From Phymorhynchus buccinoides (taxonomy: Eukaryota; Mollusca; Gastropoda; Neogastropoda; Raphitomidae): a stretch of 64,000 bases of DNA. Positions 11,917 to 64,000 of this stretch are shown here, piece by piece. The stretch's first letter is position 1, and each line of letters starts with the position of its first letter. The DNA lies in the NCBI GenBank assembly GCA_017654935.2, contig CM065690.1, positions 38,961,742-39,025,741 on the forward strand, written 5' to 3'. The position numbers were made by a program, and so were the translations under genes. Under the pieces are notes generated by a model. It did no database searches. It saw only the letters and a list, made by a program, of their open reading frames with translations, and was not told the origin of the DNA.

Positions 11917-14900
11917 CTGTCGACAGTCAACACGTTGTCAGTGACGCACGCATTATATCGGAGCTGATGACATCGCTGTCACATACCGATTACTGCATCC
12001 CTTGGCGTCTCACTAAGAACTTTCTATTCTTTGTCGAGAGTGAAGGGGTAGACAGGGCTCCCAATCGTCCCGCAAAACAAGGGGTCCCAGGGACTCCTTC
12101 ACTTACAGTATAGACAGTTCTTAGAGACAGGATAGAGGGTCCCAGTGGCATTGCGAATGCTAAAAAGAAATTTTCTAATGCATCCCTGGGACCCCCTGCA
12201 CATTCTTTTAGAGGGTCCTTTAGAATTTTAATACTTCATAGACCCCCAAATGGGGGGCCCTGGGAGCCCTGGGGTAGGTGGAGGATAAATGAAGTTGTGA
12301 GTTCAGATCCATAGTGAGGCAGTGTGTAAGTGTGTTACTGTTAGAAAACTGTAGGGGGAGGGGGGGGGGGGGGGGGGGGTTTCGAGATATTAACTATGAG
12401 AGATTTGGCATGGGTGTTTTTGTAAAATTATTTTAATGCATGTGTTTATTTTGTCGTTATCAATTTGTGTTCTTTCTTTTGTATGAGTGTGAGGTGCCGC
12501 AAGAAAATGATTCTGTACTTGAGGACATAATAAATTATTGACTGATTGATCACTCAGACAGTTTCCTGAGATATGAGTGCAGATGCGTCATGCTGCCGTT
12601 ATGTGCCTAAGAACTAGTAAGGCCCAGCATGTCCGTCTTCGGCTGCAGAAAATCTTTTTAAGAGTTTCTAGAACAAAGGCAGGAGAATGGACCAGTAAGG
12701 CAGAAAGATAATAGATGACAGTAAGCAAAGGGAAAAGGCAGAGTCAAAGCAAGTGACAAATTAACAGATTAGAGGAAGTTACAAGCACAGAACTTCCAGA
12801 AGGTGGGGGGACTGTTTTTACGAAACACCCCACTCCACCCCCTGTATCCCCACAGGAGGGGGGGGGGGGGGGGGGGGGGGGGGGGGGAGTTTCCCAAAGA
12901 ACAGTAACTCTGGAGAAAGTCAAGCATATGCAAAGAGCACTAACTCTGGAGGTCATGTTTTATTCTCTAACATGCAGTAACATACGCACATACATACAAT
13001 CAGTGACATACACACTCAAACACACACGACAGATAGACACACAAGCACACACATTGACACATTTCAGATCTGGAAAACAATGACTTTCTACTTACACATC
13101 CTCTGGAGACCATTGAAGCAAAACGGACTCTTTATTGCTGACGTCAGTTCTGCGAGCCTTTATCTGTAACAGAACAACAACAAAAAAACTGTCAATTCAT
13201 GCTTCTTTTGAGTGGATTCTGCAAACTCCACACCTAAACCAGCTATTAAGTGTTGTTCCAATGAAGTTAACCCTTTCACCGCCAAAGTCGCATTTTAGCA
13301 CCACAGTGATTTAACACCCATGTCACTAAAAGGCACTATCACATTGGGGTCCATTATCTAAAGACCCTATTGTCTTAGTTTTGGGAAGCAAGGGTAGACC
13401 TTATTTTATATATTTCACAGAAGAATCCTCAAATACTGCAGATGGTTTTTGTTCTCTCTACCCAGGTAAATTTAATGGAAAGTTTTGCTGAAATATGGCT
13501 GGCGGTGAAAGGGTTAAGGCTTGCTTTTTCTTTGAAAACTACCAACCAGTATAAAATCAAATAAGCAAGTTACACATTGGTTTGGTTTGTTTCACTTTAC
13601 TTAAATGTCCCTTCGGGTACAAAGATTTTTTGAAAGCTTACTTCAATGCCACGAAACCCATACATTAGAAAAATGGAAAGATCACATTGTACTGAAATTT
13701 TGGTCAAACTGAAAGATTGCCTTCAACTTTCAGATTGTTAAAAGTTTCACCAAAGTAAGCCATTACCAGGCTGTGGAATATTACATCACACACTCACCCC
13801 CTTGAGGACACCGGAGGGGGTGTGTGGTGTGGTGGTGGTGTGTGTTTCGTACAAATGGTTCTCCTATCTTCTGGAAGTTCTGTGCCTGTAACTTCCTCTA
13901 ATCTGTCACTCTCTTTGACTCTTGTCTTTTCCCTTTGCTTACTGTCATCTACTATCTTTCTGCCTTACTGGTCCATTCTCCAGCCATTGTAGATTGTTGT
14001 AGAAACGCTAACAAAGATTTTCTCCAGCAGAAGATAGACATTATACTGGGCCTAACTATTCAGGCATGGGAATTAGAGAAGACAAAAAAGACTGATTGGG
14101 CTTCTTTTTTTTATCTCATAAATGTCCTCTTGGACCATCAAAAAAGCTGAAACTTGCAAAAAAAAAGAGTGAAGAGGACCATCAAAAAAGCTGAAATCAG
14201 CCCAAAGACTGACAATTCCCATGCCTGCTATTTCTTAGTAAGGCACATAACGGTAGCAAGAAGCATCTGCGCTCATATCACAGGAAACTGTCTGAACGAT
14301 CCACGAAGAAAAAGAAGACATGACAGACTGACCAGGTTGTGGAATGCTACATGGAGGGAGAGCTGGTAACAGACTGACCAGGCTGTGGAATGTTACATGG
14401 AGGGAGAGCTGGTAACAGACTTACCAGGTTGTGGAATGCTACATGGAGGGAGAGCTGGTAACAGACTGACCAGGCTGTGGAATGTTACATGGAGGGAGAG
14501 CTGGTAACAGACTGACCAGGTTGTGGAATGCTACATGGAGGGAGAGCTGGTAACAGACTCACCAGGTTGTGGAATGCTACATGGAGGGAGAGCTGGTAAC
14601 AGACTGACCAGGCTGTGGAATGCTACATGGAGGGAGAGCTGGTAACAGACTGACCAGGTTGTGGAATGCTACATGGAGGGAGAGCTGGTAAGACTTACCA
14701 GGCTGTGGAATGCTACATGGAGGGAGAGCTGGTAACAGACTTACCAGGCTGTGGAATGCTACATGGAGGGAGAGCTGGTAACAGACTTACCAGGCTGTGG
14801 AATGCTACATGGAGGGAGAGCTGGTAACAGACTTACCAGGCTGTGGAATGCTACATGGAGGGAGAGCTGGTAACAGACTTACCAGGTTGTGGAATGCTAC

Positions 14901-64000: not shown

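Follow-up and report, generated by a model that had tools for sequence, protein, structure and literature searches.

Tandem copies of exon edges with surplus splice sites in two neighboring genes of a mollusc

In the 64,000-nucleotide stretch of DNA analyzed here (the window), five exons of two neighboring genes are accompanied by tandem copies of one of their edges. The 3' edge is copied in three of them (exon 3 of AEBP2 and exons F and P of an uncharacterized multi-pass membrane-protein gene) and the 5' edge in two (exons M and O of the latter gene). All five were confirmed by self-BLAST, by TRF, and by an edge-by-edge search, which bears out an earlier note on this DNA both in its list of exons and in its division into three 3' and two 5' edges, the second donor of P lying off the window end. 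The self-BLAST E-values range from 8e-21 to 0, so that chance likeness is excluded. The splice signal is kept in 64/66 extra copies of AEBP2, 5/6 of F, 3/3 of M, and 2/2 of O, while the P copy is cut by the window end; the decoy splice sites announced in the same note are thus present. We hold it to be quite probable that the duplicated edges are mirage-type minisatellites, so named in lancelets, which arose by ordinary repeat birth and are tolerated since exon definition favors the splice site nearest across the exon.

By its protein matches the window is animal nuclear DNA of neogastropod-mollusc affinity. It carries AEBP2 on the minus strand and, on the plus strand, the membrane-protein gene, which runs from 43.4 kb to the window end in 16 modeled exons (A to P). 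The membrane protein matches uncharacterized multi-pass proteins of Babylonia areolata (57% identity), Nucella, Batillaria, and Pomacea, and AEBP2 is 58% identical to the Babylonia protein; the best matches, at 57 to 58% identity, come from neogastropods. In four molluscs the matches of both proteins fall on contigs of equal size (Babylonia, 56,239,584; Nucella, 2,103,518; Pomacea, 31,531,291; Haliotis rubra, 1,011,629), so that the gene neighborhood looks conserved. The exon models, built on genomic DNA, were guided by the orthologs and by GT-AG sites, the exon-adjacent copy being taken at each duplicated edge (Table 1). Joined in this way through GT-AG sites, exons A to P encode 940 residues without interruption, and AEBP2 exons 2 to 5 likewise form a single open frame, which ends in RKHRRK-stop. 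Eight of the nine homologs were used for the membrane-protein alignment, P0002 being excluded because it carries a reverse-transcriptase domain. Pfam gave no family for the part encoded by exons A to G (457 of the 940 residues) and two zinc-finger matches on AEBP2, both below the cut-off; Rfam gave no match at gathering thresholds. A separate AEBP2 5' coding exon (39132-39457, minus strand) matches the N terminus of Haliotis rubra AEBP2 (P0015), and AEBP2 may accordingly have two alternative starts here. The orthologous Haliotis rubra membrane-protein model (P0007) contains a direct repeat some 65 residues long, which may reflect either a duplicated exon or an error of assembly. Between the two genes lie reverse-transcriptase-like reading frames at 40731-41720 (plus) and 41984-42724 (minus), presumably of non-LTR type.

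Table 1 Modeled exons and duplicated exon edges in the window
Feature	Position	Strand	Basis or remark
AEBP2 exon 5 with stop codon	11766..11916	-	tblastn, open frame
AEBP2 exon 4	13096..13163	-	tblastn, open frame
46-bp minisatellite: AEBP2 exon 3 3' edge, donor, and intron	14323..17412	-	TRF, pattern match
AEBP2 exon 3	17380..17504	-	tblastn with Babylonia and Nucella AEBP2; open frame
Acceptor-edge copy of AEBP2 exon 3	18699..18727	-	BLAST, 23/24 bases
AEBP2 exon 2 (zinc fingers)	24791..25848	-	tblastn, open frame
Exon F	51221..51539	+	Exon-adjacent donor GTAAGT, open frame
F 3'-edge array with donor, 109-bp unit	51462..52203	+	TRF: 7 units (1 real, 5 with decoy donors, 1 decayed)
Exon H	starts 53583	+	Ortholog-guided model
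Exon J	starts 55869	+	Ortholog-guided model
M 5'-edge array with acceptor, unit ~122 bp	61179..61634	+	TRF, self-BLAST
Exon M, exon-adjacent copy	61548..61704	+	Open frame
O 5'-edge array with acceptor and (GT)n tract	62770..63140	+	Self-BLAST
Exon O, exon-adjacent copy	63094..63227	+	Open frame
Exon P, exon-adjacent copy, donor GTCAGT	63738..63894	+	Open frame
Tandem copy of exon P 3' part, unit 156	63781..64000	+	Self-BLAST; cut by window end

The largest array follows AEBP2 exon 3. Pattern matching within it gives 67 copies of the edge including the real one, 65 of them with GT; the 66 extra copies, with a unit of about 46 bp, thus bring 64 GT donors (40 GTAAGT, 15 GTGAGT, and 9 GTCAGT), the remaining two reading ATGAGT. 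The exon-adjacent donor, GTGAGT, adjoins position 17380. The acceptor edge of the same exon also recurs some 1.2 kb upstream, beyond a stretch of interspersed repeats; this is a weaker sixth case. A lone stretch resembling the 46-bp unit (~13765-13786, minus strand) occurs in the same intron as the array, past a stretch of interspersed repeats, and may be the remnant of a formerly longer array.

The four arrays of the membrane-protein gene are shorter. That of F comprises seven copies including the real one, six with GTAAGT and the final one decayed to GCATGT. The M array consists of four copies from 61179, with decoy acceptors before 61184, 61303, and 61426 and a one-base deletion in copy 3, and the O array of three copies from about 62770, with decoy acceptors before 62815 and 62962, behind (GT)n tracts. 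The second copy of P starts at 63937, offset by 156 bp, and is identical at 60/64 bases before the window ends. The five loci have mutually different units.

The copies differ in their divergence as well. Copies 2 to 6 of F share 98 to 100% with one another and 95 to 96% with the exon copy, and the copy at the distal end shares only 72 to 77% with the remaining ones. In AEBP2, 51 of the 66 extra copies are within one substitution of the array consensus, four of them containing gaps as well. The exon copy departs further, its gapped alignment having 4 substitutions and a 2-base gap beside 40 matches; copies near the exon have up to 4 substitutions and distal copies 2 or fewer. The end copies are set apart from the array interior at both ends in F and at the exon end only in AEBP2, where the distal end shows scarcely any divergence (2 substitutions), unlike that of F. 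Over the exonic part, the M copies are 87 to 90% identical to exon M and the P copy 94% to its exon, while identity to exon O is 91% for the nearer O copy and 79% for the farther one; whole gapped units with their flanks reach 71 to 88% between M copies and 55 to 69% between O copies, two arrays with too few copies to judge homogenization. Taken together, the duplicated edges look like separate events with minisatellite-like turnover, their copies differing in age.

The same measurements bear on whether the arrays are assembly artifacts. Assembly of tandem arrays is difficult, and how many copies the 3-kb AEBP2 array has is uncertain; but its 66 units represent 21 different sequences, and in two places it shows the same run of three consecutive unit types, among them a unit truncated to 32 bp. 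Divergence of the exonic parts by 10 to 13% (M copies against exon M) and 9 to 21% (O copies against exon O), together with the different units of the five loci, also speaks against an artifact, which we consider highly improbable.

No copy other than the exon-adjacent one gives a full reading frame, in 77 cases tested (66 AEBP2, 6 F, 3 M, and 2 O). Among the 66 extra AEBP2 copies, 64 lead to a stop at residue 433, one at 415, and one at 432, the real end being at residue 466. The earlier note had maintained that in each completed case no copy but the outermost one fits the phase. In the four completed cases the exon-adjacent copy alone is open, but the statement on phase is wrong as it stands: both O decoys (+132 and +279), one of the five GT decoys of F (+432), and 18 of the 64 GT decoys of AEBP2 are in phase, and they fail because each meets a stop codon. 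When the copies are read by themselves, as putative exons in their own right, all three M copies and O copy 2 run into stops, and O copy 1 shows none within the 23 residues inspected. At the protein level, the junctions F/G, L/M, and N/O align without insertion to the Babylonia ortholog.

Since each tested decoy would bring an early stop, and since the decoy donors match modeled real donors in hexamer strength, the decoys might instead be alternative or poison sites that tune functional mRNA through nonsense-mediated decay. There is a human parallel for the use of such sites, namely the minisatellite of IFI6 (6-16; Turri 1995), in which downstream repeat units are used as donors (PMC4526556); there as here, the units of a minisatellite contain splice donors. 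According to the excerpts of that source, the extra IFI6 units serve as donors in known mRNAs, whereas here each tested extra unit leads to a stop: judged by reading frame, usable donors of the IFI6 type number 0/66 among the extra copies of AEBP2 and 0/6 among those of F. Against tuning, the decoys come without demonstrated conservation, copies decay (the deletion in M copy 3, the dead last F donor, and the two ATGAGT units), and lancelet mirages are reported, in the extracts used, without disturbance of splicing (PMC3087553). We regard such a regulatory role as quite improbable.

How a gene could carry so many intact sites is best explained, in our opinion, by mirage-type minisatellites, for which we infer how the duplications arose, that splicing of the RNA takes the exon-adjacent site, and that the surplus copies are neutral. 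Short stretches that happened to hold an exon border would have been duplicated in tandem, and some of them would have expanded via unequal exchange or slippage. The gene would survive because the original exon retains one intact edge. With mostly short exons and long introns, exon definition would favor the splice site nearest across the exon, and the surplus copies would turn into intron and drift, larger arrays being homogenized internally. In the models, the introns that flank the duplicated-edge exons measure, arrays included, 503 bp to 7.3 kb, the intron after P lying beyond the window; this is the range where exon definition is expected. For all 64 GT decoys of AEBP2, the hexamer is also used by a modeled donor in these two genes, which rules out, by hexamer, that they are weak sites; a factor other than the hexamer must therefore decide the choice.

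Published work on competing splice sites, as far as the excerpts of the source go, provides such a factor for donors: when minigenes under exon definition offered a choice of two identical donors, the upstream donor was used exclusively, and in human data on strength-matched competing donors under exon definition the upstream one, nearest across the exon, was preferred in 60% (PMC9225289). Against such a rule, before strength was matched it was the downstream donor that led in ~60% of events, and in 86% the stronger donor was chosen (PMC9225289). For acceptors, exon definition mainly lowers the preference for the upstream site (PMC9225289). The nearest-across-exon rule thus fits F and AEBP2 well; as the effect on acceptors is mainly to reduce the upstream preference, M and O are less well explained by it and are the likeliest places for leaky splicing.

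The closest counterparts are the lancelet mirages, described in the available extracts as tandem, minisatellite-like copies of a 5' or 3' exon-intron boundary in the genes for Adh3, the globins BflGb6 and BflGb9, troponin C, and PGBD5 (PMC3087553; PMC3902484). Their units measure 10 to 160 bp in the described cases, many copies carry AG/GT signals, regular splicing is reported to be undisturbed, and the boundary copies escape homogenization (PMC3087553; PMC3902484). The statement in the earlier note that no named description of such a cluster was known is overtaken by these reports (PMC3087553; PMC3902484), while its alternative of a tolerated class of repeat birth is supported. The likeness extends to a tandem repeat that spans the boundary at all five loci, to the occurrence of both edge types, and to the AG/GT kept in most copies. 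As regards boundary copies that escape homogenization, the picture is mixed, both ends of the F array diverging from its interior but in AEBP2 the exon end alone. The differences lie in the host, a cephalochordate there and here a mollusc with five edges in two adjacent genes; in size, the two BflGb6 haplotypes having 6 and 3 units against one array of 64 spare donors; and in the data, the lancelet claims covering splicing in RNA and ours the reading frames of one haplotype. No mollusc mirage was found among the titles and abstract openings listed in searches of an open-licence library. The phenomenon itself being known, the present case stands out for how densely the duplicated edges occur, for an array with 64 spare donors, and for its host, a mollusc.

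Two further systems are related in part. In the excerpts on human segmental duplications, tandem repeats were likewise located at exon-intron borders, manual inspection of 162 alignments leaving 27 intron modifications (PMC2812944); those modifications separate recent paralogs, whereas here the modeled exon structure is unchanged relative to the orthologs. In intron gain by tandem duplication, as excerpted for the potato RdRp gene, tandem copies also supply splice signals (PMC4974935), but here, at the protein level, no new intron appears at F/G, L/M, or N/O.

A different account would make exon borders preferred birth sites of tandem duplications in this lineage, through short GT/AG homologies, GT-rich tracts by acceptors, or transcription-linked breaks. 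We picked 20 tandem loci by hand from 74 TRF rows and 14 BLAST clusters, dropping microsatellites and leaving out the acceptor-edge copy of AEBP2 exon 3; the locus at 63003 lies within the O array, and that at 58518 has copies 433 bases apart. Five of the 20 span one of the 40 exon edges, against 0.98 expected under uniform placement in the window (P 0.002; units of at least 40 bp, P 0.0013) and 1.58 when shuffled within the two genes (P 0.0135; units of at least 40 bp, P 0.0067). For single genes the figures are 4 observed against 1.47 expected in the membrane gene (P 0.046; units of at least 40 bp, P 0.026; expectations 1.3 to 1.5 in all) and 1 against 0.12 in AEBP2 (P 0.11). This excess over random placement favors a border preference, as does AEBP2 exon 3, which may have both edges copied, and together with the hardly diverged distal end of the AEBP2 array it weighs somewhat against the mirage-type reading. 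On the other hand, the loci list is hand-made and the test post hoc, three of the five edges cluster in the final 2.9 kb, and the other 15 loci miss the edges, two being wholly exonic (43549 and 51294) and 13 intronic or outside genes. Edge copies may also stay recognizable longer than intronic ones, as selection fixes one of the two copies. The local duplication bias at exon borders that had been suggested for this DNA is thus seen as a nominal, post hoc excess to which detectability could contribute, and a border preference proper is in our judgment unlikely. Equally doubtful is the wider proposal that exon borders of gastropods and, independently, of lancelets are true hot spots of minisatellite birth, with decoys at many exons and a strict nearest-across-exon splicing rule. 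Together the 20 loci take up 13% of the window, which marks the region as rich in such repeats, and the duplicated edges by themselves do not show a new mutational mechanism.

Read as mirages, the arrays extend to a mollusc a phenomenon named in lancelets. They also offer a natural test of splice-site choice, in that a single exon has 64 spare donors behind it, all with hexamers that serve modeled exons here, and a warning to gene annotators, as such arrays can mislead exon prediction.

Other repeats occur in the window as well. Coding exon A contains an in-frame 45-bp repeat (43549-43695) of three 15-residue units, wholly exonic and with the frame kept. Interstitial telomere-like runs of GTTAGG are found at 60132-60297, some 1 kb ahead of exons M, O, and P, where duplicated edges cluster. 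What looks like a MITE family, made up of short interspersed elements whose inverted ends read TTAACTCTTCTAGC and GCTAGAAGAGTTAA, is present at 50430-50651, with single ends near 17898 and 55096, and a second family of interspersed elements has the ends TTAACCCTTTCACCGCCA and TGGCGGTGAAAGGGTTAA.
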